This document shows positions 5,660 to 53,243 of a stretch of 64,000 nt of DNA, piece by piece (position 1 is the stretch's first letter; the number at the start of each line of letters is the position of its first letter). The position numbers and the translations under genes were made by a program. Origin of the DNA: Phycisphaera sp. (GTDB taxonomy: Bacteria; Planctomycetota; Phycisphaerae; Phycisphaerales; Zrk34); assembly GCA_016125285.1 (NCBI GenBank), contig WGMA01000042.1, positions 62,001-126,000 of the forward strand, read 5' to 3'. Below the pieces are notes generated by a model that was given only the letters and a program-made list of their open reading frames with translations, did not search any database and was not told where the DNA came from.

Positions 5660-7096
5660 ATGAGTGACGTGAAGGATGACATCGAATCGACCGGTGGCGG
5701 TGACGCAGGCGACGGCGGACACGGTGGAACGTGGCTGCTGACGTGGCTCATCCTCGCGGGGTTGTTGATCGGCTGTGGGGTCGGTGAAGCCCTGTTCCGT
5801 GCGTACGACGGGCAGGTGCCCGCGGGCATCACCGGCGGCTTCGAGTTCGTCGGCAACACGTTCTTCATGTCGCTGCTCAAGATGGTGCTCGTGCCGCTCG
5901 TCGCCTCCAGTGTCATCGTCGGCGTGTCCTCCATCGGCGATCCGTCGCAACTCGGCAAGGTCGGCGGGTGCACGCTCGCGTACTACTTTACGACGATGGC
6001 GATGGCGGTGATCCTCGGCGTTGCGCTGGTCAGCATGATTCAGCCCGGCGACCCGCATCGCGACGGCGCCGGCATCGGCAAAGAGATCATCAACAAGGGC
6101 GAAGAGGCGTACGCCTCGGAGTCGCAGGACACACGCAAACACATCGAGAAGACCGGCGAGGGCGGTCTCGTCGGCGCGTTCAAGAACATCGCCCAGCAGC
6201 TCATCCCGTCCAATCCGATCGGCTCCGCCGCGGAAGGGCAACTGCTGCCCGTCATTTCGTTCAGTCTGCTGCTCGGCGTCGTGCTCACCGCGATCGGCGA
6301 CGCGGGCAAACCGCTGCTCCGCGTGTTCGAGTCGCTGTTCACGGCGATCATGAAGCTTGTCGACTGGATCCTCTGGCTCGCGCCGATCGGCGTGCTGGCG
6401 CTGGTCGCGTGGACCGTCGCACGCATCGGCATCAACTCGCTGTTCGGGCCGATGCTGCTGTACGTGATCACCGTGCTCGCGGGGCTCGCGATCCACGCGT
6501 TCATCGTGCTGCCGCTGATCCTCTGGCTGTTCGTCCGCTCGAACCCTTACGTGTTCATGCACCAGATGCGGGCGGCCCTCATGACCGCGCTCGGCACGGA
6601 CTCCAGCTCCGCGACACTGCCGGTGACGATCGAGTCCGCCGAGACCGAGGGCGGCTGCTCCAAACGCGCCGCCAACTTTGTCCTGCCGCTCGGCGCGACG
6701 ATCAACATGGACGGCACCGCACTCTACGAGGCCGTCGCGGTCGTGTTCCTCTTCCAGTGCTACGGCATCGAGCTGACCGGCGTGCAGCTCGCGATCATCG
6801 TGATCACCGCGACGCTCGCCGCGATCGGCGCCGCGGGCATTCCCTCGGCGGGACTCGTAACGATGGTGATCGTCGTGCAGGCGGTCAACGGCTCGCTCGG
6901 CGCCGACGCGCCGCACCTGCCACTCGCCGCCGTCGGCATCATCCTCGGCATTGACCGCATCCTCGACATGTGCCGCACGACCGTCAACGTCTGGGGCGAC
7001 GCGGTCGGCGCCAAGATCATCACCCGCATCGCGCCGGACGAGATCACCGATCAGGCCGCCGGCGGACCGCTATCCGCGATGACCTCGCCGGAGTAA
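5660..7096 (+). CDS. Dicarboxylate/amino acid:cation symporter (DAACS/SLC1 family)
   Basis: This 478-residue inner-membrane carrier couples Na+ or H+ entry to uptake of C4-dicarboxylates or glutamate/aspartate. It shows the family core in order: the serine-rich re-entrant loop LGTDSSSATLPVTIESAE, the GATINMDGTALYEAVAV helix (NMDGT coordinates cation and substrate), and the second hairpin AAIGAAGIPSAGLVTMVIV. The closing helix GIDRILDMCRTTVNVWGD also matches. An expanded hydrophilic loop with charged sequence (about residues 130-180) separates early helices. It is close to GltP/DctA, and the substrate cannot be settled by eye. The 3' end overlaps the convergent membrane-protein gene by 46 bases. 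It is divergent from pyruvate kinase. Confidence 0.9.
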   Translation: MSDVKDDIESTGGGDAGDGGHGGTWLLTWLILAGLLIGCGVGEALFRAYDGQVPAGITGGFEFVGNTFFMSLLKMVLVPLVASSVIVGVSSIGDPSQLGKVGGCTLAYYFTTMAMAVILGVALVSMIQPGDPHRDGAGIGKEIINKGEEAYASESQDTRKHIEKTGEGGLVGAFKNIAQQLIPSNPIGSAAEGQLLPVISFSLLLGVVLTAIGDAGKPLLRVFESLFTAIMKLVDWILWLAPIGVLALVAWTVARIGINSLFGPMLLYVITVLAGLAIHAFIVLPLILWLFVRSNPYVFMHQMRAALMTALGTDSSSATLPVTIESAETEGGCSKRAANFVLPLGATINMDGTALYEAVAVVFLFQCYGIELTGVQLAIIVITATLAAIGAAGIPSAGLVTMVIVVQAVNGSLGADAPHLPLAAVGIILGIDRILDMCRTTVNVWGDAVGAKIITRIAPDEITDQAAGGPLSAMTSPE

Positions 7097-7938
7097 TCGG
7101 CCGGGGTGTCCGATGTGTCGACGCGTGAACGCAGGTCCAGCAGGCCGACGATCGCCAGCAACGCCAGGTTCGGAAACAGCAGCGGTGCAAACACCGGTGC
7201 GCCGAACACGACGTCTTGCCAGATCGTCGTTGGCTTGTCGTTCAGGTCGGCCAGGACGTGCAGCGCGAAACCGATGATCCCGACGCCCGATTCGATCAGC
7301 ATCACCATCACGCAGATCGCCAGGAACCGTCGGTGGGGCGTCGATGCGCACGCAACGGTGAGAAACCCGACCGCGAACGCCGCGGTGATGACGGGGACCC
7401 ACTCCGTGCCGTGAAAGAAACCGTTCTGCGCGTGGTCCGCCAGACTCAGCCCGAAGTTGCCCACGAACCCGGCGCACGCGAGGAACACCACCCAGCGGCC
7501 CCACTCGACGTCGTCGCCGGACACCATGCGGTTCATGATCAGCAGCATGCCCAGCCCCGCGTACGCCAGCGGCGCCACGAACGGCGCGCTGTACACCAGC
7601 GCCGTCAGTGTCCGCTCCACGAAGAACCGGCTGTCGAGGTGCAGCAGCATGCCCGCCACACCGACGCCGACGCACACGTAGCCGACGACGTACCCCAGCC
7701 CGTCGGCGGTCCGCGTCCGACCGGCGCCGCGCAGGCCCACCGCGGTCAGCATCAGCGCCGACCCGATCACCGACACCCCCAGCGGCGCCCACTCCGCCGG
7801 CTCGGCGAACGCGTTGATCGAGTGGGCGATGTAGATGTCGACCGTCAGGAACGCCAGGTTCGCCAGCACGAACGTGTCGATCACCTGCACGCGCCACCGC
7901 GGCCAGGCTGCGCCGAGCTTATCGAACCGACGCCGCAT
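7051..7938 (-). CDS. Polytopic membrane protein of unknown function, coupled to the octaheme cytochrome
   Basis: This is a 295-residue protein with about seven or eight hydrophobic segments (for example FVLANLAFLTVDIYIAHSI, LGVSVIGSALMLTAVGL, FVAPLAYAGLGMLLIMN, VFFGAPVF-like end segments) and no heme-binding CxxCH. Several histidines lie near helix ends (IAHS, LLHLD, DHAQN, FFHG, FALHVL). I do not recognise a named family. Its start codon overlaps the end of the upstream octaheme cytochrome gene by 20 bases, which implies translational coupling and a shared role. A quinone-interacting or anchoring partner for the cytochrome is a reasonable guess but not shown by any motif. The 3' end overlaps the convergent symporter gene. 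Confidence 0.75.
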   Translation of the reverse strand: MRRRFDKLGAAWPRWRVQVIDTFVLANLAFLTVDIYIAHSINAFAEPAEWAPLGVSVIGSALMLTAVGLRGAGRTRTADGLGYVVGYVCVGVGVAGMLLHLDSRFFVERTLTALVYSAPFVAPLAYAGLGMLLIMNRMVSGDDVEWGRWVVFLACAGFVGNFGLSLADHAQNGFFHGTEWVPVITAAFAVGFLTVACASTPHRRFLAICVMVMLIESGVGIIGFALHVLADLNDKPTTIWQDVVFGAPVFAPLLFPNLALLAIVGLLDLRSRVDTSDTPADYSGEVIADSGPPAA

Positions 7939-9166
7939 GCGACTTCTCCGCGCGGAGCTCTTCCGCCATCTTCTTCATCTCCGTGTATTTCAGCAGCAGC
8001 TCATAGTTGCCGTGCCACTGCACGAAGTCCGCCCCGCCCATGAACGCGCCGTGCTTGGCCGTCCGTCCGTAGTAGTGCCAAAGGTCGAAGTTCACGAACT
8101 CGATCGGTTCGTCGAACGGCTCCGGCGTGAGCAGCCCCTCCTGTCGCAGCTGATCCATCAACGCGGTCGCCTCGCTGATCTTCGCGTTCGTTGACTCGAC
8201 GACCTCCTCGGCTTCCTTGTAGAAGCGGTCCACGCCGCTCTTCGCGTGACACTTGAGGCACAGCTCTTTCATCTCCGCCTGCCCGCCGTTGTAGGTCGGC
8301 CGCTTCTTGCTGACCGCGGCGAACAGCCAGTAGCTCAGGCGCTCCGTCGTGTCGTGTGTGACCTTCATCCCCTCGAGGCCGCTCATGTGGCACGTCGCGC
8401 AGGTCGGCACGGGCATGTCGCGCGTGCTCAGGTCCTTCGGTCGGGCGTCGAGCCGCAGCGACGCCCGCTGCGCGTGGAACAGCACGCCGTGCTTCGACTC
8501 GTTGTAGATCTCCAGCTGCGAGTGGTCCGGGCCCATGTGGCACTGCCCGCACGTGTCGGGGCTGCGGGCCAGGGCGATCGACGTGTTGTGCCGCGAGTGG
8601 CACTGCGTGCAGGTGCCGATCGAGCCGTCGGGGTTGGGCTTACCGATGCTGTGACACTGGGCGCAGCCCTTGGTGATCGCGCTGGGGCCTTCGAGAAGAG
8701 CGAGGCCGTTGGCGGGGCGTTTGACCGCGCCGGGGTGGTGCTGCTCGGCGAAGGCGACCTGCTCGGCGGTGAAGTCGTCGGGACCGCGGACCGCCGCCCA
8801 GGCCGGCGCGGCGTGCCGGCTCCGTGTGTACTGCTCGTACTCCGTGGGGTGGCACTGCTTGCAGTTCAACGCCGTGACCTTCATCGCCAGCGTGAACTCG
8901 TGATGCTCCTGCTTCGCCTGCCCCTCGACCGGTCGGTGACACTCGAGGCACGTCAGGCCGAGCTGCGCGTGGCGCGATCGCCCGAACTGGTGCACGATCG
9001 CCGACGTTTCACGCAGGTGGCACTCGGCGCATTTGCCGGTCGCCCGCACGAACTCCGCCGAGGGCTGGTCGAGTTGCGTCGGCGGCCGCGACCCGTGCAA
9101 CAGGAACGCCGCGACGATCAGCGCCGTGGCGATCATCGTCGCGATGAATACTGACTTGAATGCCAT
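7919..9166 (-). CDS. Octaheme cytochrome c of the hydroxylamine oxidoreductase (HAO) family
   Basis: This 415-residue periplasmic cytochrome has an N-terminal uncleaved-looking anchor (about residues 5-22) and exactly eight CxxCH heme sites at about 46, 73, 102, 168, 186, 206, 256 and 303. The order and context match HAO-type octaheme cytochromes: CGQCHMGPDHSQLEIYNESK, TCATCHMSG and the helical tail GGADFVQWHGNYELLLKY. Members either oxidise hydroxylamine/hydrazine or, in the epsilon-HAO branch, reduce nitrite or hydroxylamine. The distinction rests on a cross-linking tyrosine whose presence needs an alignment. At 415 residues it is shorter than the usual 500-570. No ammonia monooxygenase, NapC/NrfH or cytochrome c554 gene lies nearby, so classic nitrification is unlikely. 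The downstream membrane protein is translationally coupled. Confidence 0.85.
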   Translation of the reverse strand: MAFKSVFIATMIATALIVAAFLLHGSRPPTQLDQPSAEFVRATGKCAECHLRETSAIVHQFGRSRHAQLGLTCLECHRPVEGQAKQEHHEFTLAMKVTALNCKQCHPTEYEQYTRSRHAAPAWAAVRGPDDFTAEQVAFAEQHHPGAVKRPANGLALLEGPSAITKGCAQCHSIGKPNPDGSIGTCTQCHSRHNTSIALARSPDTCGQCHMGPDHSQLEIYNESKHGVLFHAQRASLRLDARPKDLSTRDMPVPTCATCHMSGLEGMKVTHDTTERLSYWLFAAVSKKRPTYNGGQAEMKELCLKCHAKSGVDRFYKEAEEVVESTNAKISEATALMDQLRQEGLLTPEPFDEPIEFVNFDLWHYYGRTAKHGAFMGGADFVQWHGNYELLLKYTEMKKMAEELRAEKSHAASVR

Positions 9167-9278
9167 GCGTACACCCCGCTTTCAAACGACCCCACGTGCG
9201 ATCGACGGGCCCGATTCCCGCCACTAAGCCTAGCGACTACCGACGCGTCCAATGTACCGGAGATTGTCCGATTCCTCT

Positions 9279-9284
9279 ATCATC
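9279..9284 (+). promoter_or_regulatory. Candidate -10 element giving a leaderless DUF4202 transcript
   Basis: TATCAT ends 6 bases before the ATG at 9291, so the expected transcription start coincides with the start codon. No Shine-Dalgarno sequence is present. The same CTATCATCC context recurs immediately before ubiE at 42622-42630. Confidence 0.35.
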
Positions 9285-9290
9285 CCAAGC

Positions 9291-9887
9291 ATGACGGACC
9301 TCGCAGAACGCTTCCACCACGCCATCGAGCGCATCGACGCCGCGAACGCCGAGGACCCGCACGCGGTCGTCATCAACGGCGAGTCGCGCCCCGCGTGCCT
9401 CGTCTACGGCCGGCGGATGAGCGCCACGCTCGTCTGCTACGCGCCGAACGCCTCGGAGGCGCTGCGCCTCGCCGCCCGCGCGCAGCACATCCGCCGCTGG
9501 CAGATCCCGCGTGACACGTACCCGCGCGACCGCAAGGGCTACCACCTTTGGCGCACCGAACTGTACGCCTTCCACGCCGACCAGGCCGAGGCGATCCTCC
9601 GCGACGTCGGCTACGACGACGACACGATCGCGCGCGTGCGCGACCTGCTGATGAAGAAGCGCATCAAGGCCGACGCCGACATGCAGACGCTTGAGGACGT
9701 GATCTGCCTCGTGTTCCTCGAGCACTACTTCGACGACTTCGCCGCGGACCACGACGACGACAAGGTCGTCACGATCCTGCGGCGCACGTGGAACAAGATG
9801 TCCGACACCGGGCACGACGCGGCGATGAAGCTCCGCCTGTCCGAGCGTGCAATACGCCTCGTCCAGCGGGCGTTGTCCGAGCAGTAA
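9291..9887 (+). CDS. DUF4202 family protein
   Basis: This 198-residue soluble protein matches the DUF4202 family by its overall pattern: AIDAAN-like opening (RIDAANAEDP), LVYGRRM, ASEALRLAARAQHIRRW, PRDTYPRDRKGYHLWR, and the late ICLVFLEHYFDDF. The conserved His, Arg, Asp and Tyr residues suggest an enzyme or metal-binding helical bundle, but the biochemical role is not established. I start at 9291 rather than the upstream ATG at 9252 because conserved sequence begins there and a -10-like hexamer occupies the space between. It is divergent from the octaheme cytochrome and followed by an exported esterase gene in the same direction. Confidence 0.8.
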   Translation: MTDLAERFHHAIERIDAANAEDPHAVVINGESRPACLVYGRRMSATLVCYAPNASEALRLAARAQHIRRWQIPRDTYPRDRKGYHLWRTELYAFHADQAEAILRDVGYDDDTIARVRDLLMKKRIKADADMQTLEDVICLVFLEHYFDDFAADHDDDKVVTILRRTWNKMSDTGHDAAMKLRLSERAIRLVQRALSEQ

Positions 9888-11534: not shown

Positions 11535-12659
11535 CTACTCGCGCATCGTCGCGGGGTCGATGCCGTTGTCCTTGCACCACGCGACGTACGCCAGCGGACT
11601 GATCTCCGACGGCTTGATCTCGCTGCGGCCGCCCCAGAACACCGCCGTGTAGCTTACGGGAATGCCGATCTCTTCGAGGTGGGCGTCGATCGCCGCTTTG
11701 TGGTTGAGCACGAGTTGCTTATCGAGCCCGTGCGACACGCCCATGACGTTGACGTTGTTGAAGTCCGGCCCCGCCTCACGCCAGTAGGCGTGCGTCATGC
11801 ACATGTGGCGGCCGACCTCCATGCCCGCCTCCATCTCCTTGCCCTTCGGCACGGCCCAGTGGAACAGCGCGTTGTACCGCGTGACCACCTCGCCACCCTT
11901 GAGCTTCTTGACGTGCTCGAGGAACGTGCTGAACCGCCCGACGACCTGGCGGGCGTTGAGGTCCGCGGCGACGCGGCAGAACTCCTCGAATTCCACACCC
12001 GCCTCCTCGGCGCGCGCCTTCCACAGGTCCGGGGTCAGTTCGTGCGGCTCGAACTCGCGCTTGAGCGATTCGATGACCTGCCACTCGTGGTCCGTCAGCG
12101 GGATCACGTCCGTGTCGAGCACGCGTGCCGGTTCCTCGGTGCGATCGCCGGGCGAGATCTCGCGCCGCCGCACGTGTCCGACGCCCAGCGCGAACAGCTT
12201 CTTGGCGGGCAGCAGCTCGTACTTCAGCGCGCCGGTCTTCTCCATCAGCACCTTGCAGTGCTTGTCCATCGAGTAGCCGACCGGCACCTTGAGCGTGGTC
12301 CACAGGCGGTACTGCGAGCCGGGCGTTTCCTTGTCGGTGGAGCGGATCACGACGTGCCCGCTGAACGGGTCGTCGCGGAACATGTACTCGAACGCGTCGT
12401 TGAGCTTGTCTTCGGGGACGTTCCACGCGACCAGCGCCCCGGGCGCGAGCGACGTGGCGATCAGCGTCTGCCGCACGCGGCGGATCGTCCCGGCCTCGAG
12501 CATGGCGCGGATGCGTTCGATCACCGTGTCGAGGTCGACGCCCGACTCGGCGGCGATGAACTCCAGCGGCTGTCTCACGAAGCCCTGCACCTTGTCTTCC
12601 GACACGGAGAGGATGCGCTTGTTGATCGGGTCTTCGACGGTGACGGGAATGGTTTGCAT
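11535..12659 (-). CDS. Fused siroheme decarboxylase-like protein (AhbA-AhbB/NirDL type)
   Basis: This 374-residue protein contains two Lrp/AsnC-related halves in tandem. The first is about 1-160 (winged helix IERIRAMLEAGTIRRVRQTL, then LVAWNVPED, HVVIRSTD, LWTTLKVPVG). The second is about 190-360 (VIESLKREFE, DLNARQVVGRFSTFLEH, FHWAVPKG, HMCMTHAYWR, NVNVMGVSHG). This is the architecture of siroheme decarboxylase, which converts siroheme to 12,18-didecarboxysiroheme in heme d1 synthesis or the alternative heme route. AhbA and AhbB are usually separate chains of about 150-180 residues, so the length fits a fusion. No ahbC, ahbD or nir genes are in the window. It lies 20 bases downstream of the Rieske gene, likely in the same transcript as the aldo/keto reductase. 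Confidence 0.75.
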   Translation of the reverse strand: MQTIPVTVEDPINKRILSVSEDKVQGFVRQPLEFIAAESGVDLDTVIERIRAMLEAGTIRRVRQTLIATSLAPGALVAWNVPEDKLNDAFEYMFRDDPFSGHVVIRSTDKETPGSQYRLWTTLKVPVGYSMDKHCKVLMEKTGALKYELLPAKKLFALGVGHVRRREISPGDRTEEPARVLDTDVIPLTDHEWQVIESLKREFEPHELTPDLWKARAEEAGVEFEEFCRVAADLNARQVVGRFSTFLEHVKKLKGGEVVTRYNALFHWAVPKGKEMEAGMEVGRHMCMTHAYWREAGPDFNNVNVMGVSHGLDKQLVLNHKAAIDAHLEEIGIPVSYTAVFWGGRSEIKPSEISPLAYVAWCKDNGIDPATMRE

Positions 12660-21797: not shown

Positions 21798-21834
21798 CCC
21801 TCTTCCCTTGTTTGGGCAGGAGCGTTGTAATCCG

Positions 21835-22593
21835 ATGTCCGACGCCGATCAGCCAAAACTTTTCGTCTTCCCCCGGTGGTCCAACCTCGTCATACCGGCG
21901 CTGGTATTGGGTGCCGTCGCGGGGATGCCTTACATCGTGTTGCTAGTGGGAATGATCGGCGCGCCATCGACATTGGCCGTCGGTTATCAGCCCCAGCAGC
22001 CGATCCCGTACAGCCACGAGCTGCACGTGAATCAGCTGGGGCTGGACTGCCGCTACTGCCACAACACGGTCGAGACGGGCGCGTTCGCCGCGATCCCGCC
22101 AACGGCCACCTGCATGAACTGCCACCACGCGGTTCGCACCGACAGCGCCGTCCTCAAGCCGCTGTACGAGAGCTTCCGCACGGGCAAGCCGATCCACTGG
22201 ACGCAGGTCCACGACCTGCCCGACTACGCGTACTTCAATCACTCGGCCCACATCAACAAGGGTGTGAGCTGCGTGTCTTGCCACGGGCGGATCGACCGCA
22301 TGGGCGGCGACGGCGTCTATCAGCACGAAGAGCTCAGCATGGGCTGGTGCCTGAACTGCCACCGCAACCCCGCGCCGAACCTGCGGCCCAAGAACCAGGT
22401 CACCAACCTGATGTGGGGCTTCGACCTGACCGAGGACGAGGCTCAGCAGCTGCGTGACCTGGGGTTGAAAGACGTGAAGGCTGGTGTTGACCTGACGGAC
22501 GAGCAGCGTCTGGAGGTCGGCGAGCTGATGTTCAAGAAGCACAACGTGATGGACCGGCACCAGATGTCGGATTGCTCCAGATGTCATCGATGA
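21835..22593 (+). CDS. actA: Alternative complex III subunit ActA, pentaheme cytochrome c
   Basis: This 252-residue membrane-anchored periplasmic cytochrome is the electron exit/relay subunit of alternative complex III, which oxidises menaquinol. One helix near residues 18-40 (LVIPALVLGAVAGMPYIVLL) anchors it. Five CxxCH sites follow: CRYCH, CMNCH, CVSCH, CLNCH and the terminal CSRCH. The two ELHVNQLGLDC/FNHSAHINKGVSC repeats are typical of cytochrome c class III/ActA. The start is set by a clear Shine-Dalgarno sequence. The stop overlaps the actB start as ATGA. Confidence 0.92.
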   Translation: MSDADQPKLFVFPRWSNLVIPALVLGAVAGMPYIVLLVGMIGAPSTLAVGYQPQQPIPYSHELHVNQLGLDCRYCHNTVETGAFAAIPPTATCMNCHHAVRTDSAVLKPLYESFRTGKPIHWTQVHDLPDYAYFNHSAHINKGVSCVSCHGRIDRMGGDGVYQHEELSMGWCLNCHRNPAPNLRPKNQVTNLMWGFDLTEDEAQQLRDLGLKDVKAGVDLTDEQRLEVGELMFKKHNVMDRHQMSDCSRCHR

Positions 22594-25500
22594 ACACGCA
22601 AAAAACCGGCAAGGCGTATTGGCGCAGCCTCGATGAGCTGGCGGACACACCCGAGTTCCGCCAGCGCCTCGAGCAGGAGTTCGCCGATTACACGCCCGAA
22701 GAAGTGATCGCCTCGCCGACCCGCCGCAGCTTCATGAAGCTGATGGGCGCGTCGATGGCGCTGGCTGGGGTCGGTGGCCTCAGCGGTTGCCGGCGTTGGC
22801 CTTCCAAGCAGATCGCCCCGTACACCGTCCGCCCCGAGGGACGCATCCCGGGCATTCCCGAGCAGTTCGCGACCGTGATGGAACTCGGCGGCGTGGCCAT
22901 GCCGCTGCTGATCTCCAGCTACGACGGCCGGCCGATCAAGGCCGAGGGAAACCCCTCGCATCCGCAGTCACGCACGCGTGAGGGCAAGTTCGCCTTGGGC
23001 GCGTGCAACGTGTTCGCCCAGGCGAGCGTGCTGGAGATGTACGACCCGCACCGCAGCCGGGACGTGCTCAACAACGGCGCCAAGTCGTCGTGGGCCGCGT
23101 TCGCGAAGATCGCCAAGGGCCTGGCCGACACCGGCAAGCTGGCTGTGCTCAGCGAGCAGACCAGTTCCCCGACCGTCGCGGCGATGCGGCAGAAGCTCGT
23201 CGACGCCGGGGCGACCTGGTACACGTGGGAGCCGATCAACCGCGACAACGAACTGGCCGGCTCCGAGATGGCGTTCGGCGAGACGGTCACGCGGACGCAC
23301 CTGCATCTGGATCAGGCGAAGGTCATCGCGTGCTTCGACGCGGACATCCTCGGCTTCGGGCCGATGGCGCAGGCGTACGCCCGTGACTGGGCCAGCGTCC
23401 GCCGCACGCTCGACAGCAAGACGATGAGCCGCATGTACTGCGTCGAGAGCCGCATGACGGTCACCGGGTCGAACGCCGACGAGCGTCGCTCGCTGGCGTC
23501 GTCGAAGGTGCTCGACGCGATCCGGCTGCTCGGCGAGAAGGTCGGCGCCGGCACCAAGCCCGCGCACGAGGTCGACGCGAAGACGGCCGCCTTCATCGAG
23601 CGGCTCGCCGCGGACCTCAAGGCCAACGCCGGCAAGGGCGTGATCGCCGTCGGCGAGTCGCAGCCCCCGGCCGTTCACGCCGCGGCGCTGCTGATCAACG
23701 ACAAACTCGGCAATCTCGGCAAGACCGTCACGCTGACGCAGGAAGCCGACGTCAACATCGCCCAGACGTCGCAGCTCGCGACGCTCGTGGCGGACCTCAA
23801 CGCCGAGGAGATCAAGACGCTGGTGATCCTCGGCGGCAATCCCGTCTACGACGCCCCGGCGGACCTCGCGTTCGCCGATGCGATGAAGAAGGCCGCGACG
23901 ACCGTGCACGTCAGCACCTACGTTGACGAGACCTCGAAGCGCTGCACGTGGCACCTGCCGCGTTCGCACTACCTCGAGTCGTGGGGCGACGCCCGCGCGT
24001 ACGACGGCACGCTCAGCGTGCAGCAGCCGCTCATCCATCCGCTCGCGGCCGACAGCCGCAGCGTGATCGAAGTGCTCGCCGCGATGACCGGCGACGAACT
24101 GACGGCGGGCTACGACATCGTGCGTCGCACGTTTGCCGCGCACCTGCCGGAGAACAAGTTCGAGCGGGCCTGGCGACAGGTGCTGCACGACGGTCTCGCG
24201 GAAGGCACGGCACACAAGCCCGTGTCGCCGACGGTCAGCCTCGGCCTGGCCGGCAAGGTCAACGGCGCGGAGGCCAGCCACGGCGACCTCGAGCTGGTCA
24301 TCACGCCCGATTACAGCCTCTACGACGGCCGCTTCGCCAACAGCGGCTGGCTGCAGGAATTCCCTGACCCGATCACGAAGGTCACCTGGGACAACGCGCT
24401 GATCGTCGGTCCGTCGACCGCGAGCAAGCTCGGCCTCAAAGACGGCGGCCGCGCGACCGTCAAGGTCGGCGACACGTCGGTCACGCTCGGCGTGTACATC
24501 CAGCCCGGTCAGGCCGAGGGATCGGTCTCCGTGGCCAGCGGGTACGGCAGGGCGTCGGCGGGCTACGTCGGCGACGGCGTCGGCTTCGATATCAATCAGC
24601 TCCGCACGAGCCAGTCGCCGGTGGTCACGACCGCGGTCACGGTCACCTCGGCCGGCGGCTCGTACGACCTGATGTCCACGCAGGACCACTGGGTGATCGG
24701 TCACGCCGCCAGCCTCGAGCGTGAGTATCGCGCCGAGCATCACCTGGTGCAGACCAAGACGCTGTCCGAGTTTGAGCACGCCGGTGAGCACGAGCATCAC
24801 TTCGGCACGCACGCCCCGTCGGTCGAGCGTAAAGGCCTTGACGGCACGCACCTGCCGCTGCAGATCTTCGACGAGCCTGTCGACTTCGAGAAGCAGCGTT
24901 ACCGCTGGGGCATGTCGATCGACCTGAACACGTGCATCGGCTGCGGCGCGTGCATCGTGGCGTGTCAGGCGGAGAACAACATCCCGGTGGTCGGCAAGGC
25001 GCAGGTCGGCCGCGGCCGCGAGATGCACTGGATCCGCGTCGACCGCTACTTCGTGGGCGACCCCGAAGAGCCGAAGGTCGTGCATCAGCCGCTGACGTGT
25101 CAGCAGTGCGAGAACGCGCCGTGCGAGCAGGTGTGCCCGGTGGCCGCGACGGTGCACGACACCGAAGGCATCAACGTCATGGTGTACAACCGCTGCATCG
25201 GCACGCGGTACTGCTCGAACAACTGCCCGTACAAGGTGCGTCGATTCAACTGGTTCGACTGGAACGCCAAGCCGGTCAAGAGCGGCGACCACGGCGCGAC
25301 CTGGATCAACATCCCCGACCAGCAGCAGGTCAAGATGATCGACCCGGTCCGCAAGATGGGCTTCAACCCCGAGGTCACCGTCCGCATGCGCGGCATCATG
25401 GAGAAGTGCACCTTCTGCATCCAACGCATCAAGGCGGTGACGATCCCCGCGAAGAACGCCGAGCGTTCACTCATCGACGGCGAGATCACCCCGGCCTGCG

Positions 25501-25718
25501 CCCAGACCTGCCCGACGCAGTCGATCACGTTCGGCGACCTGAACGACAAGGACAGCCAGGTCCGCAAGGACTTCGGCGACGAGCGGGCCTACGAGATCCT
25601 CAAGGAAATGAACGTGCGGGCGCGCAACCGCTACCTCACCCGCGTTACGAACCCCGGCGAGAGTCACGACGCCGGTCACGACAGTCACGAAACGAAGTCA
25701 CACAGCAACCACGGGTAA
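22590..25718 (+). CDS. actB: Alternative complex III subunit ActB, molybdopterin-like and iron-sulfur protein
   Basis: This 1042-residue subunit fuses a molybdopterin-oxidoreductase-like domain to an FeS domain. The N-terminus has the ActB motif KAYWRSLDELADTPEFRQ, then a Tat signal with twin arginines (TRRSFMKLMGASMALAG), so the mature protein is periplasmic. The central region (about 100-700) is the Mo-bis-PGD fold that in this family has no Mo cofactor. From about residue 780, four ferredoxin-type cysteine groups occur: CIGCGACIVAC, CQQCENAPCEQVC, CIGTRYCSNNC and CTFC plus CAQTCPTQ. These carry electrons from quinol toward the hemes of ActA/ActE. The ATGA overlap with actA fixes the start. 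A His-rich tail (about 20 residues) follows. Confidence 0.93.
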   Translation: MNTQKTGKAYWRSLDELADTPEFRQRLEQEFADYTPEEVIASPTRRSFMKLMGASMALAGVGGLSGCRRWPSKQIAPYTVRPEGRIPGIPEQFATVMELGGVAMPLLISSYDGRPIKAEGNPSHPQSRTREGKFALGACNVFAQASVLEMYDPHRSRDVLNNGAKSSWAAFAKIAKGLADTGKLAVLSEQTSSPTVAAMRQKLVDAGATWYTWEPINRDNELAGSEMAFGETVTRTHLHLDQAKVIACFDADILGFGPMAQAYARDWASVRRTLDSKTMSRMYCVESRMTVTGSNADERRSLASSKVLDAIRLLGEKVGAGTKPAHEVDAKTAAFIERLAADLKANAGKGVIAVGESQPPAVHAAALLINDKLGNLGKTVTLTQEADVNIAQTSQLATLVADLNAEEIKTLVILGGNPVYDAPADLAFADAMKKAATTVHVSTYVDETSKRCTWHLPRSHYLESWGDARAYDGTLSVQQPLIHPLAADSRSVIEVLAAMTGDELTAGYDIVRRTFAAHLPENKFERAWRQVLHDGLAEGTAHKPVSPTVSLGLAGKVNGAEASHGDLELVITPDYSLYDGRFANSGWLQEFPDPITKVTWDNALIVGPSTASKLGLKDGGRATVKVGDTSVTLGVYIQPGQAEGSVSVASGYGRASAGYVGDGVGFDINQLRTSQSPVVTTAVTVTSAGGSYDLMSTQDHWVIGHAASLEREYRAEHHLVQTKTLSEFEHAGEHEHHFGTHAPSVERKGLDGTHLPLQIFDEPVDFEKQRYRWGMSIDLNTCIGCGACIVACQAENNIPVVGKAQVGRGREMHWIRVDRYFVGDPEEPKVVHQPLTCQQCENAPCEQVCPVAATVHDTEGINVMVYNRCIGTRYCSNNCPYKVRRFNWFDWNAKPVKSGDHGATWINIPDQQQVKMIDPVRKMGFNPEVTVRMRGIMEKCTFCIQRIKAVTIPAKNAERSLIDGEITPACAQTCPTQSITFGDLNDKDSQVRKDFGDERAYEILKEMNVRARNRYLTRVTNPGESHDAGHDSHETKSHSNHG

Positions 25719-25727
25719 ACGTCAACC

Positions 25728-27208
<1,481 letters not shown>

Positions 27209-27212
<4 letters not shown>

Positions 27213-27859
27213 CCACCGCCACCGAAACCCAACCCGTTGAGTCCGCCGCCGTCGCCAGCGACGAAGCGGTCGACATCCACGCCCCGCAGTTCCACGGGCT
27301 GCTGGCCGAGTACGCCGAGGTCGACGACCTGATGGCCGCGGCACGCAAGATCCGCGACGCCGGCTTCACCCGCTGGGAATGCTTCACGCCGTGCCCGATC
27401 CACGGGCTCGACAAGGCCATGGGCGTTCAGCACACCAAGCTGCCGTTCGTGTCGCTCGCCGGCGGCATCACCGGTTGTGCGCTCGGTCTGCTGCTGGTGT
27501 TCTGGACCAACGCGATCAGCCCCGAGACCCTGCCGATCATCGGCGACACGCCGTACGCCGTCCGCGGCTACGACTTCTTCATCTCCGGCAAGCCGTTCTT
27601 CTCGCTGCCCGCGAACATCCCGCCGATCTTCGAGCTGACGATCCTGTTCAGCGCGTTCGGCGCGTTCTTCGGCATGATCGCGATGAACATGCTGCCGCGT
27701 TTCCACAACCCCGTGTTCAACAGCCGACGCTTCGCCAAGGCGTCGGACGATCGGTTCTTCATCGCGGTGGAGGCCGAGGACCCTGTGTTTGATCGTGAGA
27801 AGACCGCCGCATTGCTTTCCGAGACGGGCGCCGCGTCCGTCGAGGAACTGGAGGACTGA
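27209..27859 (+). CDS. actD: Alternative complex III subunit ActD (DUF3341)
   Basis: This 216-residue membrane subunit is the ActD/DUF3341 protein: a cytoplasmic domain of ~90 residues with [20 protein letters not shown] and [17 protein letters not shown], then two helices (about 92-112, and around [19 protein letters not shown]). The tail [20 protein letters not shown] is diagnostic for the family. Its role is structural. It overlaps actC by four bases and is followed 6 bases later by actE. Confidence 0.92.
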
Positions 27860-27865
27860 CGCGAG

Positions 27866-29032
27866 ATGCCGCTGACACCCAAACAAAAGCTGCAACGGAT
27901 GCTCCCGCCGTACCTCGGCGTGATCGTCTGTGCGCTGATCTTCATGACGGTGCTGTCATGGATCCCGCTGGTGCTGATCGCCAAGCGTCGCGCCAGCCAC
28001 TCGCCGATGCCGCGCGTCCACATCTTCCAGGACATGGACGCCCAGCCGAAGTTCGGCGCGCAGGACGCCAACACGCTGTTCGCCGACGGACGCGCCATGC
28101 GGCCGGTCGTCGAGGGCGCCGTCGCCCGCGGTCACCTCAACACCGACGACCACTACTACCGCGGCTACAAGACCGACGGCAACCTCAAGCCGATCCTCGA
28201 TTCCAACAACCAGCTGACCTGGTACGACGGGTTCCCCAAGCAGATCACCGTCGACATGGCGCTGCTGAAGCGCGGGCAGGAGCGGTTCAACATCTACTGC
28301 GCCGTGTGTCACGGCCGCGCCGGCTACGGTGACGGATCGGTCTCCGAGCACATCAAGCAGATCAACGATCAGGCGACGTTCGCGGGCAAGCCGCTGCCGG
28401 CCGCCGGCTGGGTGCCGCCGCGTAACCTCATCGGCACCGAGTACGTCCGCACCGACCCGCTCGGCAAGCTGTTCAACACGATCACCAACGGCTTCAACAA
28501 GATGCCGTCGTACGCGGCGCAGATCCCGGTCGAGGACCGCTGGGCGATCGTCGCGTACGTCCACGCCCTGATCAACTCGCAGCGCATCGACAAGGCCAAG
28601 GTCGCGGACCTCTACAAGGACGAGGACTTCGCCGACCCGCTCGTCGTGCCGACGGTCCCGAAGGTGAAGGTCGTCGAGGTCGCCGCCGACGCCAGCGAGG
28701 ACGAGAAGCTGATCGCCCAGGGCGCGACGCTGTTCCAGACGAAGATCTGCTTCACGTGTCACACGATCGACGCAAGCAAGCCCGCCGCCACCGAGGCGGC
28801 GCTGCACGCGCCCCGATTCATCGGCAAGTTCTGGGGCGAAGACGTGAAGGTGCACGACGGGATCAACGGCCCGCTTATCACGGTCAAGTTCGACGAGGCG
28901 TACTTCATGGAGTCCGTCGAGCAGCCGATGGCGAAGATCGTCGACGGCGCGCTGCCCGGCATGGCGCCGCTGCCGACGACCCCCGAGGAACGCAAGGCGC
29001 TGATGTACTACGTCAGGAGCCTGTCGAAGTAG
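27866..29032 (+). CDS. actE: Alternative complex III cytochrome c subunit ActE, with a second cytochrome domain
   Basis: This 388-residue cytochrome is anchored by one helix (about 13-33). Domain one has CAVCHGRAGYGDG (heme c) and the distal-Met region NKMPSYAAQIPVEDRWAIVA, the normal ActE domain. Domain two (about 275-388) has CFTCHTID and GALPGMAPLPTTPEERKALM. ActE usually carries one heme, so this is an extended diheme form. Domain two is nearly the same sequence as the separate cytochrome encoded immediately downstream, which shows a recent local duplication. Confidence 0.9.
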   Translation: MPLTPKQKLQRMLPPYLGVIVCALIFMTVLSWIPLVLIAKRRASHSPMPRVHIFQDMDAQPKFGAQDANTLFADGRAMRPVVEGAVARGHLNTDDHYYRGYKTDGNLKPILDSNNQLTWYDGFPKQITVDMALLKRGQERFNIYCAVCHGRAGYGDGSVSEHIKQINDQATFAGKPLPAAGWVPPRNLIGTEYVRTDPLGKLFNTITNGFNKMPSYAAQIPVEDRWAIVAYVHALINSQRIDKAKVADLYKDEDFADPLVVPTVPKVKVVEVAADASEDEKLIAQGATLFQTKICFTCHTIDASKPAATEAALHAPRFIGKFWGEDVKVHDGINGPLITVKFDEAYFMESVEQPMAKIVDGALPGMAPLPTTPEERKALMYYVRSLSK

Positions 29033-29089
29033 GTGCGCGACCTCGGCGGTCGTGGCACGCGTAGGATGGGAGAACAGGAGGTGTTCGAT

Positions 29090-29569
29090 ATGAACATGCA
29101 CACGAACAAGACAATCCGTACCGCACTGTTGATCACCGCCGCGGCGGTGATCATTCCGACCCTTTTTGTCCTGACCTCCAAGGCCGAGGACAAGAAGGAC
29201 GACGCCGACTTCACGCCGGACCCGAAGCTCGTCGAGCAGGGCAAGACCCTGTTCCAGACGAAGATCTGCTTCACGTGTCACCAGACGGACCCGAACACGC
29301 CTGCCCCGGCGGGCGAGGCCCTGCACGCGCCGAAGTTCATCGGCAAGTTCTGGGGCGAGGACGTGAAGGTGCACAACGGGATCAACGGCCCGATCATCAC
29401 GGTGAAGTTCAACAAAGAGTACTTCATGGAGTCCGTCGAGCAGCCGATGGCGAAGATCGTCGAGGGAGCGATTCCCGGCATGGCCCCGCTGCCGACGACG
29501 CCCGAAGAGCGCACGGCCCTGATGCACTACGTCCGGAGCCTGTCGAAGAAGGTCGAAGAGAAGAAGTAA
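29090..29569 (+). CDS. Small membrane-anchored monoheme cytochrome c, duplicate of the ActE C-terminal domain
   Basis: This 159-residue cytochrome has an N-terminal anchor or signal (TALLITAAAVIIPTLFVL), the heme site CFTCHQTD, and the distal-Met region EGAIPGMAPLPTTPEER. From LFQTKICFTCH to YVRSLSK it matches the second domain of ActE at about four residues in five, with long identical DNA stretches. It probably shuttles electrons between alternative complex III and the oxidase, or is an extra subunit. The start at 29090 is set by a strong AGGAGGTG upstream. Its position between actE and actF is inside the complex III operon. Confidence 0.9.
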   Translation: MNMHTNKTIRTALLITAAAVIIPTLFVLTSKAEDKKDDADFTPDPKLVEQGKTLFQTKICFTCHQTDPNTPAPAGEALHAPKFIGKFWGEDVKVHNGINGPIITVKFNKEYFMESVEQPMAKIVEGAIPGMAPLPTTPEERTALMHYVRSLSKKVEEKK

Positions 29570-29611
29570 CCGCACCCGCCCGGCGACGGGCGGGGCGAGG
29601 AGAGGCCGCAC

Positions 29612-30886
29612 GTGAGCGAGTCAACGAACAACACCGCATCGACCGGCGAGGTCCGGGCGCTGGGCGATCTGACCGGCAAGGCGCGCATGCTCATGCTCGC
29701 CAAGGCGGGCGCGGGTTTCGCGCTGCTGGCGCTGGTGAGCATGTTCTTCCCCGGTGAAACGCACGACAAGATGCGCGTGCTGGGCCTGGGCTACCTGACC
29801 GGCTTCGTCTTCGTGCTTAGCATCTCGCTGGGGGCGCTGTTCTTCGTGATCATCCATCACCTGACCCGCGCCGGCTGGTCGGTGGTGGTCCGACGCCTGG
29901 CCGAAAACATGGCCGGCTGCCTCAAGTACATCCTGATCATGGGCCTGCCCATCATCCTGCTGACCGCGGTCGGCGTGCTGTACGGCCACTGGATGCAGCC
30001 GACCGGCGAGCACGCCGAACTCGTCGAGCTCAAGTCCGGCTGGCTGAACTTCCCGTTCTTCAGCCTCCGCATGCTCGTCTACTTCCTCGTCTGGATCGGC
30101 ATCGCTCACTGGTACCGCACCAAGAGCATCGAGCAGGATACCTCCGGCGACGTGCAGCTGACCAAGGACATGCAGGCCTACAGCGGCCTGGCGCTGGTGC
30201 TGTTCTCGCTGTCGATCAACTTCGGTTCGATGGACCTGATCATGAGCCTCTCGCCCACGTGGTACAGCACGATCTTCGGCGTGTACTACTTCGGTGGTTC
30301 GATGATCGCGTTCTTCGCGGTGATGATCCTGCTGCTCAAGCGTCTGCAGAGCTGCGGCGTGCTGACCAGGTCGGTCAACGTCGAGCACTTCCACGACCTG
30401 GGCAAGTTCATGTTCGGCTTCACCATCTTCTGGGCCTACATCGCCTACAGCCAGTACATGCTGCAGTGGTACGGCGCGATCCCCGAAGAGGTGTCCTGGT
30501 TCGCCACGCGTGGCGCCGAGACCAGCGCCGACTCGACCGCCGGCGACGGCTGGCACTGGGCGGCGCTGCTGCTGCTGGTGTGCCACTTCCTGATCCCGTT
30601 CCCCGGCCTGCTGAGCCGCTGGGCGAAGCGCTGGACCGGCGTGCTGATGTTCTGGGCCTGCTGGATGCTGTTCTGGCACCTGTTCGACATGGCGTGGGTC
30701 GTCATGCCGGAGTACGGCGCCGTCGGCAGCGGCGGGGCGTTCTTCCTGGTCGTCGCGGCGATCGGCGGGTGCCTGGGCCTCGGCGGCCTGTGGGGCCTGG
30801 GCCTGATCAAGCTCTGCAACGAGGCCAGCCTCGTGCCGGAGCAGGACCCGCGGCTCGGTGAGTCGCTGGCGTTTGAGAACTTCTGA
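29612..30886 (+). CDS. actF: Alternative complex III subunit ActF
   Basis: This 424-residue integral membrane subunit has about ten helices and is homologous to the C-terminal part of NrfD-like ActC. Recognisable parts are ITHHLTRAGWSVVVRR-like (HHLTRAGWSVVVRRLAE), LVYFLVWIGIAHWYRTKSIE, SLSPTWYSTIFGVYYFGGSM and HDLGKFMFGFTIFWAYIAYS. It completes the membrane sector of the quinol oxidase. Translation begins with GTG, preceded by a GGAGAGG Shine-Dalgarno. It is 42 bases downstream of the extra cytochrome gene. Confidence 0.92.
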   Translation: MSESTNNTASTGEVRALGDLTGKARMLMLAKAGAGFALLALVSMFFPGETHDKMRVLGLGYLTGFVFVLSISLGALFFVIIHHLTRAGWSVVVRRLAENMAGCLKYILIMGLPIILLTAVGVLYGHWMQPTGEHAELVELKSGWLNFPFFSLRMLVYFLVWIGIAHWYRTKSIEQDTSGDVQLTKDMQAYSGLALVLFSLSINFGSMDLIMSLSPTWYSTIFGVYYFGGSMIAFFAVMILLLKRLQSCGVLTRSVNVEHFHDLGKFMFGFTIFWAYIAYSQYMLQWYGAIPEEVSWFATRGAETSADSTAGDGWHWAALLLLVCHFLIPFPGLLSRWAKRWTGVLMFWACWMLFWHLFDMAWVVMPEYGAVGSGGAFFLVVAAIGGCLGLGGLWGLGLIKLCNEASLVPEQDPRLGESLAFENF

Positions 30887-30918: not shown

Positions 30919-31272
30919 ATGAGCGGACACGATCACGGACATTCGAACACGGACATTCGCGGCGAAGCCGGCCACGACGTCTCGGGCATGCGCATCGGCA
31001 TGATCGTGTACGCCGGCATACTCGGCGTCGTGATCGTCTACGTGCTGATTGTTGCCATCCAGGTATGGTTTTACAATCAGAAGAACGCGGAAACCGACGA
31101 GATCAACAAGCAGCCCAACCAGGCGATCCGCGCCTACAACGAGCGGGAGAACCAACGCCTCCGCACCGTCCGATGGGTCGAGAAGGACGACGGTGTCGTG
31201 GCGATCCCGATCGACAAGGCCATGGAACTCTACGTCGCCGAGCACGGCGGCAAGGGGAGCGGCAAGAACTGA
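30919..31272 (+). CDS. Small single-helix membrane protein of the oxidase operon
   Basis: This 117-residue protein has a His-rich N-terminus (SGHDHGHSNTD), one helix (about 28-50, MIVYAGILGVVIVYVLIVAI) and a C-terminal periplasmic segment. The pattern RTVRWVEKDDGVVAIPIDKA followed by MELYV resembles small proteins seen beside SCO and cox genes in other act-cox operons. The role is unknown; metal handling or oxidase assembly fits the position. Its stop overlaps the SCO start by one base (TGATG). Confidence 0.7.
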   Translation: MSGHDHGHSNTDIRGEAGHDVSGMRIGMIVYAGILGVVIVYVLIVAIQVWFYNQKNAETDEINKQPNQAIRAYNERENQRLRTVRWVEKDDGVVAIPIDKAMELYVAEHGGKGSGKN

Positions 31273-32207
31273 TGTTGCAGCGCACCCACGCATCCCGACG
31301 CCTCGCCCACGCCCGTCGCCTGACGACGGCGGCGGTCGCGGTCGTCGCGCTGATGCTGGGCGCCGCGTCGCAACGGGCACGCGCGGACCACGCCACCGTG
31401 CCCGCGCCCGCCGGACAGACAGCCTCGGCGCAGAACCCCGGCACGCAGCCCATGCAGGGCGTGGGCATCATCGAGAACCTCGGCGACAACGCCCCGATGG
31501 ACGTGACGTTCAAGGACGACCACGACCAGACCGTCAAGCTCGGCGACTACTTCGTCAAGGGCCGCCCGGTCGTGCTCAGCCTCATGTACTACCAGTGCCC
31601 CGGCATGTGCAAGGCCGAGCTGTCGGCGATGATAGACGTGTTCGCCAAGATGAAGATGACGCCCGGCAAGGAGTTCGAGGTCATTTGCGTGAGCATCGAT
31701 CCACGCGAGACCCCCGACCTCGCCGCGGCGAAGAAGCGCACGACGATCGACGTGCTGGGCAAGCCCGAGGCGGCCGAGGGCTGGGCGTTCCTCACCGGCG
31801 ACCCGGTCAACGTCGAGAAGCTCACCAAGGCCGCGGGATTCAGCTACCGATTCAACGAGCAGACGGGCCAGTACGCCCACGACTCGGCGATGATCGTGAT
31901 GACCCCGGACGGCCGGTTCTCGCGGTACCTCCGCGGGTTCCACTTCGAGCCCGACACCGTGAAGCTGGCGCTGGTCGAGGCGACCGGCGGCAAGATCGGT
32001 TCGCTCAGCGAGCGGATCCAACTCCAGCTGTGTGGCTACGACCCGCGGTACGGCAAATACGTGCTGGCCGCTCAAAGCATCATGGCGATCGGCGGCGCCC
32101 TGACCATGATGTTTGTCGGCGGACTTGTCGGTTTTTTCTGGTGGCGCGAACACAAACGACGCAGGAAGGCGAACAGTGACAGCGAAGTTCAAGTTCATCC
32201 TGTATAG
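31272..32207 (+). CDS. SCO1/SenC-family copper chaperone for cytochrome oxidase
   Basis: This 311-residue exported, membrane-anchored thioredoxin-fold protein delivers copper to the CuA centre of subunit II. It has a signal peptide (about 15-38), the SCO copper motif CPGMC after LSLMYYQ, ICVSIDPRETP and the third ligand His in YAHDSAMIVM. A C-terminal helix (about 275-297) follows. It overlaps the upstream gene by one base and its 3' end overlaps the coxB start region by 32 bases, so translation is coupled. Confidence 0.88.
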   Translation: MLQRTHASRRLAHARRLTTAAVAVVALMLGAASQRARADHATVPAPAGQTASAQNPGTQPMQGVGIIENLGDNAPMDVTFKDDHDQTVKLGDYFVKGRPVVLSLMYYQCPGMCKAELSAMIDVFAKMKMTPGKEFEVICVSIDPRETPDLAAAKKRTTIDVLGKPEAAEGWAFLTGDPVNVEKLTKAAGFSYRFNEQTGQYAHDSAMIVMTPDGRFSRYLRGFHFEPDTVKLALVEATGGKIGSLSERIQLQLCGYDPRYGKYVLAAQSIMAIGGALTMMFVGGLVGFFWWREHKRRRKANSDSEVQVHPV

Positions 32208-33519
32208 CGGCCTGTTGTTGGTCGCCTCGGCCGGTCGGTCGGCACTCGCCGGAGTGTTCGACTTCATGTACCCGCGCGAAGAGTCCAACCACGCCAGCCA
32301 TACGGATTTCACGTTCGACCTGATCAACTGGATCACGGTCGTCTCGTTCATCGGCATCATCGTCGTGATGGTGTACTTCGCGGTGCGCTACCGCCGCAAG
32401 GACCCGCACCAGCGTGCCGAGAGCCAGGTCAGCCACTCCACCTCGCTGGAGCTCGTCTGGTCCGTCCCGCCGATCATCGCCGTCGCCGCGATCTTCTGGT
32501 ACGGGTTCTCCGGCTTCGTCGAGCTGCGGACGCCCCCGGCCAACTGCTACACGATCAACGTCGAGGCCTACCAGTTCGGCTGGCAGTTCACGCACCCCAA
32601 CGGCCTGGTCGAGACCAACGTGCTGCAGGTGCCCGCCGGCGAGCCGGTCAAGCTCGTCATGCAGTCGCGCGACACGATCCACAGCCTCTACATCCCCGCG
32701 TTCCGCGTAAAGCAGGACGTGCTGCGGGGCCGCTTCTCGATGCTCTGGTTCATGCCGCTGCACCCGACCGACGGCGCCGACTTCGACGTGCCCACCGGCG
32801 ACAAGCTCGACGAGTTCGCCAGGAAGGAACTGGCGCGCCAGGTCGAGAAGGAACTGGTCGGCAACAAGCAGAAGGTCGTCGAGTCGGTGGTCAACTCCGA
32901 GCGCGACAAGCGCTTCGACGACCTGACCAAGGAAGCATCGGAGACGGCGGCCAAGCAGTTCGAGGAACAGTCCAAGGCCAAGCCCAAGCCCGAGAAGCCG
33001 CTGACGAAGGACGAACTCCAGGCCGCGGCGCTGCTCAAGAAGAAGCAGGGCCTGGCGAAAGACTACCAGTACTTCCTCGCGCAGGAACGCGGCCTGATCC
33101 TGTTCTGCGCCGAGCTTTGCGGTGAGGGCCACTCGCTGATGATGGCCCGCGTCGTCGTGCACACGCCGGGCTGGCGTCCGCCGGCGGTCGAGATCCCCAC
33201 CGACCCGGTCGAGCGCGGCGCGTTCTACTTCAAGACCAAGGGCTGCATCGCGTGCCACGACAACGCGGCGATGGCGGCGGTGGGTTACCCGCAGATGATC
33301 ACCCAGGGCATCTGGGGCAAGGACGAGAAGCTCAAGGACGGTCGGACGATCAAGATCGAAGGCGACGAGGGCGTGGCCTACCTGCACAAGTCGATCATGG
33401 AGCCCGCGGCCGACGTCGTGGCGACGGCGCCGATCCCGATGCCGCAGCAGCAGGTGACCGAAGACGAGGCCAAGTACATCATCGAGTACTTCAAGACACT
33501 GAAGTTCAAAGGCAACTGA
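32176..33519 (+). CDS. coxB: Cytochrome c oxidase subunit II with charged insertion and C-terminal cytochrome c domain
   Basis: This 447-residue subunit carries the CuA centre. It has a signal peptide, two helices (WITVVSFIGIIVVMVYFAVR; VPPIIAVAAIFWYGFSGF), the quinol/cyt c-type fold AYQFGWQFTHPNG, the CuA ligand His in DTIHSLYIPAF and the loop CAELCGEGHSLM. Between FMPLHPTDGADFD and the CuA loop (about 198-300) sits a ~100-residue Lys/Glu-rich helical insertion absent from standard subunit II. A C-terminal cytochrome c domain has GCIACHDN (about 356) and PIPMPQQQ, making this a caa3-type enzyme. The GTG start at 32176 is preceded by GGAAGG; upstream in-frame sequence belongs to the SCO gene. 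Confidence 0.9.
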   Translation: MTAKFKFILYSGLLLVASAGRSALAGVFDFMYPREESNHASHTDFTFDLINWITVVSFIGIIVVMVYFAVRYRRKDPHQRAESQVSHSTSLELVWSVPPIIAVAAIFWYGFSGFVELRTPPANCYTINVEAYQFGWQFTHPNGLVETNVLQVPAGEPVKLVMQSRDTIHSLYIPAFRVKQDVLRGRFSMLWFMPLHPTDGADFDVPTGDKLDEFARKELARQVEKELVGNKQKVVESVVNSERDKRFDDLTKEASETAAKQFEEQSKAKPKPEKPLTKDELQAAALLKKKQGLAKDYQYFLAQERGLILFCAELCGEGHSLMMARVVVHTPGWRPPAVEIPTDPVERGAFYFKTKGCIACHDNAAMAAVGYPQMITQGIWGKDEKLKDGRTIKIEGDEGVAYLHKSIMEPAADVVATAPIPMPQQQVTEDEAKYIIEYFKTLKFKGN

Positions 33520-33560
33520 TCCGCCGCAACGGATGAGATTGCACTAAGGAGGAGGTCACC

Positions 33561-35327
<1,767 letters not shown>

Positions 35328-35396
35328 TCGCAGCAACACCCGGCCGGTGACCCGGCCGCATCGCGACAACGCGAATCTGTTCAGGACGTGTAGGAC

Positions 35397-36359: not shown

Positions 36360-36390
36360 CCCGACCCCGAACGAAACGGACCCGACTCCG

Positions 36391-53173: not shown

Positions 53174-53243
53174 ATGCGGGGTCTCGATCGTGATCGGGCT
53201 GATGTTGTGTGGCGGCGGTGATGCGCGGCTGGGGCGGGCGTGG

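Follow-up and report, generated by a model that had tools for sequence, protein, structure and literature searches.

We analyzed a 64,000-nucleotide stretch of DNA from Phycisphaera sp. (GCA_016125285.1, contig WGMA01000042.1, positions 62,001-126,000 of the forward strand), which is referred to here as the window, and focused on two overlapping genes encoding an octaheme c-type cytochrome of the HAO family and an eight-helix membrane protein without CxxCH motifs. The results indicated that the octaheme is most likely a membrane-bound relative of HAO that works reductively and has a partner from a new family. We consider it an evenly balanced proposition that the pair constitutes one membrane-bound quinol:N-oxide oxidoreductase, in which the octaheme would be the reductase and the eight-helix protein the quinol-oxidizing subunit. 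The two genes and their overlap are as follows:

7919-9166, reverse strand: octaheme c-type cytochrome of 415 residues, HAO family, predicted to lack the cross-link (open reading frame, Pfam, PDB matches, alignment).
7051-7938, reverse strand: integral membrane protein of 295 residues, eight helices in a duplicated 4+4 arrangement, no CxxCH (open reading frame, AlphaFold, profile searches).
7919-7938, reverse strand: overlap of both genes, 20 bases (coordinates of the open reading frames; recurs at other loci).

The octaheme gene comes first and the membrane gene second on one strand, and the coordinates of the reading frames agreed with an earlier note on this DNA, which had described a CxxCH-free membrane protein gene overlapping the octaheme gene by 20 bases. 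Because the genes overlap and an identical 20-base overlap recurs elsewhere (loci L018, L021, L029, L031, L036, L059, and L062), translational coupling of the two genes is suggested. The flanks are a convergent SDF symporter gene (5660-7096) and a divergent DUF4202 gene (9252-9887); the pair is therefore a two-gene unit.

The octaheme contains eight CxxCH motifs, at residues 46, 73, 102, 168, 186, 206, 256, and 303. The HAO family membership claimed in the earlier note was not a chance resemblance, as the Pfam family Multi-haem_cyto (PF13447) matched with 91 bits (cut-off 21.9) and the PDB matches were led by the Ignicoccus octaheme 4qo5 (E 2.9e-33), with N. europaea HAO 4fas (E 2.3e-23), Kuenenia HOX, and hydrazine dehydrogenase (HDH) among the others. 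All eight motifs were aligned with those of HAO, HOX, and HDH in the HAO order. The score against the NCBIfam hydrazine dehydrogenase family NF052343 was 76.5 bits, which is below the curated cut-off of 900. An N-terminal membrane anchor that looks uncleaved was found at about residues 5-23, and F3, F7, R27, and P28 in this region were kept in 77 of 77 linked sequences, as would be expected if the anchor helix packs against the partner.

Co-occurrence of the two genes was analyzed in two sets. Set 1 was a single-sequence search of 294 planctomycete genomes with the membrane protein as the query, and set 2 was drawn from one genome per species across 84,980 species, with the best 80 of 120 candidate stretches that code for relatives, picked by the pattern DH[AE][QR][ND][GH]FF, being taken. 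The full membrane protein was found in nine of the 294 planctomycete genomes, and all nine carried an eight-heme reading frame of 414-441 residues directly upstream on the same strand. The octaheme was likewise directly upstream on the same strand at 80 of 80 set-2 loci, four of which were cut by a contig end. The intact cassette is known from many bacterial phyla, with set-2 labels covering about ten: Planctomycetota, Poribacteria, Neomarinimicrobiota, Zixiibacteriota, Verrucomicrobia, Acidobacteria, Hydrogenedentota, Gemmatimonadetes, Bacteroidetes, and KSB1. These names were taken from the record titles, most of which denote metagenome-assembled genomes (MAGs); carriers without a MAG label were Singulisphaera sp. 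GP187 (L020) and Planctomycetales bacterium ZRK34 (L013). No third gene was conserved beside the pair across the set-2 loci, and 86 neighboring proteins belonged to unrelated families. A profile search of the 294 planctomycete genomes revealed no octaheme-free distant relatives of the membrane protein beyond noise, the one real extra match being a fragment at a contig start (G199:C719), and a search of plasmids gave no match.

The linked octahemes also formed a single clade. When the nine linked planctomycete octahemes were made into a profile, they scored 688-793 bits against it and every other planctomycete octaheme at most 342 bits. A tree of 50 octahemes contained a branch with a support of 99/99 that separated the 22 linked sequences from the rest, with L010 as a long branch. 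At 77 loci, the pairwise distances among the octahemes were correlated with those among the membrane proteins (r = 0.71), a value that none of 2000 permutations reached (best 0.14); since shared species history contributes to this correlation, it indicates stable co-inheritance rather than contact. The co-occurrence that the earlier note had proposed to search for was thus observed in both sets, and its suggestion of a coupling to the membrane protein stood as strict linkage, but the coupling is not peculiar to the source genome and belongs to a widespread single-clade module. Outside the clade, the octaheme of a relative from the same class (L132) instead lies beside a multiheme c-type gene that resembles NapC/NrfH by eye. 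As a side observation, L129-L136 and other planctomycete octahemes form a large separate group of HAO-like proteins of 460-590 residues, many with GPDYTxWHG, which have varied c-type neighbors and no link to the membrane protein.

The active-site region of the octaheme was compared with that of HAO at three positions:

8651-8665, reverse strand: fourth CxxCH motif (CAQCH, residues 168-172), which corresponds in the alignment to catalytic heme 4 of HAO.
8522-8527, reverse strand: Asp214-His215, aligned with the active-site Asp267-His268 of N. europaea HAO, in 77 of 77 linked octahemes.
8003-8047, reverse strand: residues 374-388, AFMGGADFVQWHGNY, aligned with the region of the P460 cross-linking tyrosine in oxidative HAOs.

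Asp214-His215 was aligned residue by residue with the HAO pair, at which 4qo5 has Asp-Val. Tyr467 of N. europaea HAO, identified in the HAO structure as the tyrosine that cross-links to heme 4 of the neighboring subunit, sits in GGWTYTEGW, and the profile alignment placed it on Q383 of the octaheme. In an alternative register obtained from the HOX alignment, two nearby tyrosines landed on H385 and F381. Among the linked octahemes, the Tyr467 column was occupied by Gln in 76 of 77 sequences and by His in the remaining one, position 385 by His in all 77, and position 381 by Phe in 71 and Tyr in six. The P460 tyrosine, which the earlier note had proposed to locate by HAO alignment, was therefore absent, with Q383 or F381 at its site. 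Because Gln, His, and Phe occupy the Tyr467 column and the alternative registers, a P460 cross-link is not expected in the linked octahemes on the basis of their sequences. HAO family membership, the lack of the tyrosine, and the kept Asp-His pair are the sequence features of cross-link-lacking reductive HAO (HAOr/epsilon-Hao type). As the cross-linking tyrosine is absent, reduction is more likely than oxidation for the octahemes linked to the membrane protein.

The membrane protein gave no Pfam match at E 0.1 and no NCBIfam family. When 47 relatives were scanned singly against Pfam, only scattered weak matches were obtained, and a profile of the 47 revealed nothing credible in the PDB. The NrfD/PsrC profile (PF03916) did not match the protein at E 1; the same profile does detect the ActC-like protein at 25728-27209 in the window. 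The AlphaFold model (pLDDT 81, pTM 0.80) showed two groups of four helices, all eight of them long. Foldseek found no relative of this model (best E 0.15), and the top VIA-align match was the tandem-bundle metalloprotein 3d19, with a Z of 16.4 that is close to the helical-bundle background; with Foldseek E values of at least 0.15 and only helical-bundle look-alikes from VIA-align, no known fold, that of NrfD/PsrC included, was convincingly assigned. Judged by its sequence, the membrane protein belongs to no recognized family, and the earlier note's description of it as unrecognized held, with no relative in Pfam, NCBIfam, or the PDB. Neither of the two outcomes that the note had named as refuting, missing co-occurrence and membership in a characterized unrelated family, was thus obtained.

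The two halves of the membrane protein were aligned by hhalign with a probability of 98.7% and an E of 1.9e-15, indicating an internal repeat. In this alignment, His39 was paired with His169 inside a repeated H-x2-N-x-F-x4-E-W motif and His100 with His227, and two alanine- and proline-rich stretches were also paired between the halves. The four histidines are as follows:

7822-7824, reverse strand: His39, end of helix 1, invariant (model and alignment).
7639-7641, reverse strand: His100, predicted periplasmic end of helix 3, invariant (model and alignment).
7432-7434, reverse strand: His169 in the DHAQNGFF motif, end of helix 5, invariant, the repeat of His39 (model, alignment, and hhalign).
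7258-7260, reverse strand: His227, predicted periplasmic end of helix 7, invariant, the repeat of His100 (model, alignment, and hhalign).

The four histidines, Asp34, and Asp168 showed no variation in alignments of 47 and of 77 sequences. As the pattern DH[AE][QR][ND][GH]FF was used for picking the set-2 loci, the conservation of this motif there, including Asp168 and His169, is partly by construction; the same motif was also kept in the nine planctomycete loci of set 1, which were chosen without the pattern, and the conservation of His39, His100, and His227 is unaffected by this caveat. In the AlphaFold model, all four histidines were near the distal ends of the odd-numbered helices, and the positive-inside charge distribution indicated an inside location of the N-terminus for 47 of 47 sequences. 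The four histidines are therefore predicted to lie on the periplasmic side, which is also where the octaheme is expected. A protein that matches no known redox family and stands beside an octaheme with an anchor of its own might also be an anchor, assembly factor, or channel, with the electrons supplied by a different donor, for example a soluble cytochrome. This explanation is decidedly unlikely, because the four histidines are invariant across phyla, duplicated, on one membrane face, and resemble cofactor ligands, and because no other dedicated partner is conserved. We give somewhat less than even odds to the reading that the membrane protein represents a new quinol dehydrogenase family of two four-helix repeats, probably with one b-type heme each, which would carry electrons straight from the quinone pool to a periplasmic octaheme N-oxide reductase.

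The genomic context of the cassette was informative in Verrucomicrobia and one unlabelled bacterium. At L054, L058, and L060, hcp lies about 25-55 bases upstream of the cassette, and the products matched the NCBIfam hydroxylamine reductase with more than 810 bits (cut-off 367). At L027, L040, and L050, a quinol nitric oxide (NO) reductase gene lies downstream of the cassette (6qq5, E 9e-260); Crp/Fnr-type genes occur near cassettes of this type, and NapH-like genes in two of them. At the planctomycete locus L055, a gene for a divergent NorB (39% identical) adjoins the pair on the opposite strand. Because Hcp or quinol NO reductase adjoins the cassette in Verrucomicrobia, these results tie it to N-oxide chemistry. 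The electron path for nitrite, hydroxylamine, or hydrazine conversion that the earlier note had suggested gained support from this context as far as N-oxide chemistry is concerned, whereas the oxidation of hydroxylamine or hydrazine is unlikely for an octaheme without the P460 tyrosine. Separately, an FNR-like box (TTGA-N6-TCAA) was observed 102-108 bases before the octaheme start, only in L027, L040, and L050, which are near-copies from Verrucomicrobia.

In the source genome, no gene matched PF03264 (NapC/NrfH) in a search with E. coli as the positive control, and no heme-c gene other than the octaheme itself lies next to the pair. The usual HAO partners, which the earlier note had reported as missing, are thus absent as far as tested, Amo and cytochrome c554 not having been searched genome-wide. 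The window contains an alternative complex III cluster at 21808-30883 on the forward strand, with a pentaheme ActA-like protein, an iron-sulfur ActB, an NrfD-type ActC, ActD, and ActE-like cytochromes. Downstream of it, at 31065-36957 on the same strand, are SCO1 and cytochrome c oxidase subunits, and the two segments together are probably an alternative complex III-oxidase locus. The presence of these genes indicates that the chain is aerobic and that a quinol pool exists. Such a chain, the HAO family membership, and the kept Asp-His pair would all suit the opposite direction, in which hydroxylamine, NO, or hydrazine is oxidized and the electrons pass to quinone via the membrane protein, as in the forward hydroxylamine:ubiquinone redox module (HURM). 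We consider this quite improbable, since the P460 tyrosine is missing at every plausible register and the recurring neighbors, Hcp and quinol NO reductase, are reductases. HAOr without the cross-link, moreover, reportedly did not oxidize hydroxylamine.

In the proposed quinol:N-oxide oxidoreductase, a periplasmic octaheme reductase would be held by its own N-terminal helix and partnered with the eight-helix subunit, which would take electrons from quinol and hand them to the octaheme wire. The two histidines on alternate helices of each four-helix set suggest one b-type heme per repeat at the periplasmic face, with His39/His100 and His169/His227 as putative ligands. Heme 4, with the nearby Asp214-His215 and no tyrosine cross-link, would then reduce nitrite, NO, or hydroxylamine, and the purpose may be detoxification or a side respiratory pathway. 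Several observations weigh against this proposal. The Hcp and quinol NO reductase neighbors come mostly from related Verrucomicrobia, L027, L040, and L050 being near-copies, and the majority of loci have unrelated neighbors. In the source genome, Hcp, copper NirK, NorB, NrfA, and NarG were not found above cut-off; of the N-oxide reductases covered, a set without NirS and NosZ, the octaheme may be the only dedicated one in this genome. The Pfam scans of the relatives and the PDB profile revealed no heme-b or quinone-site homology for the membrane protein, and the AlphaFold model of the octaheme was poor (pLDDT 54) and unusable for the geometry of heme 4. The shortage of N-oxide genes at most loci and of standard N-oxide enzymes in the source genome would also be consistent with an octaheme that serves as a relay or as a reductase for something other than an N-oxide, for example a sulfur oxyanion or some acceptor outside the cell, the membrane protein still being a quinol dehydrogenase; the nearest solved relative, 4qo5, is itself without a settled physiological function (PMC4429474). 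This alternative appeared unlikely, because all 77 linked octahemes have the HAO Asp-His pair in place of the Asp-Val of 4qo5 and because the functional neighbor, where one recurs, is Hcp or quinol NO reductase.

Two other loci in the window were recorded as side observations. An FdhF/YdeP-family molybdopterin oxidoreductase gene (50945-53278) and an fdhD gene (50094-50915) lie on the reverse strand, with a divergent MobA-like gene near; a nitrate reductase reading of the molybdopterin enzyme was rejected, since it is of the FdhF/YdeP type with FdhD beside it. At 11535-12659 on the reverse strand, AhbA-like and AhbB-like siroheme decarboxylase halves are joined in one chain, both below their curated cut-offs, and the product may be a fusion enzyme of heme biosynthesis or else a regulator.

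HAO-like genes of planctomycetes and of other phyla with few cultured members are commonly labelled hydroxylamine dehydrogenase or putative octaheme nitrite reductase by hidden Markov model (HMM) alone; in the sections of PMC11266412 that deal with them, for example, Phycisphaerae HAO-HMM hits are listed as putative octaheme nitrite reductases, with no membrane partner mentioned there. The clade described here can be recognized by its fixed membrane partner and is most likely reductive. The pair was not described in a literature search, subscription papers and supplements being outside its coverage. The unnamed membrane family would add a new entry of quinol electrons to periplasmic N-oxide reduction and, if the proposal is true, a third quinol route that occurs widely in little-studied phyla, in addition to the cytochromes of the NapC/NrfH type and the NrfCD or Rieske-cytochrome b complexes.

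Of these systems, the quinol-oxidizing NrfD/PsrC (NrfCD) subunits share with the membrane protein a prediction of eight helices, a place next to a c-type nitrite reductase chain, and a comparable proposed role, but the membrane protein has no PF03916 match, no iron-sulfur subunit, and four invariant histidines. The Ignicoccus hospitalis octaheme 4qo5 is the best-scoring solved relative and also lacks the cross-linking tyrosine at the site; it differs in its 521-residue chain and in the residue pair that follows heme motif 6, which is Asp-Val rather than Asp-His, and what the Ignicoccus cytochromes do in vivo is a matter of speculation (PMC4429474). Kuenenia HAOr (kustc0458/0457) and its homologue kuste4574 share HAO family membership and the missing tyrosine cross-link with the octaheme. 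According to the passages of PMC12758564 and PMC12485887 that cite Ferousi 2021, HAOr without the cross-link reduces nitrite to NO, and the shared absence of the cross-link favors a reductase type for the octaheme. HAOr works with a dedicated redox partner, kustc0457, and kuste4574 is part of a Rieske/cytochrome b complex. HAOr is soluble, whereas the 415-residue octaheme is shorter, self-anchored, in a separate clade, and accompanied by its own membrane gene. The closest parallel in organization is the reverse HURM of Nautilia profundicola (epsilon-Hao), in which quinol electrons pass through a NapC/cM552 cytochrome to a reversed Hao and Hcp completes the reduction (PMC2628731). Both systems would combine a reductive HAO-like octaheme with a membrane quinol partner, and the cassette lies beside hcp in some Verrucomicrobia, as the reverse HURM works with Hcp. 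The cassette differs in that its partner is an eight-helix protein free of heme c rather than a NapC/NrfH/cM552 cytochrome, and it may thus be viewed as a module like the reverse HURM (Hao, NapC/cM552, and Hcp) in which the NapC part is swapped for the membrane protein.

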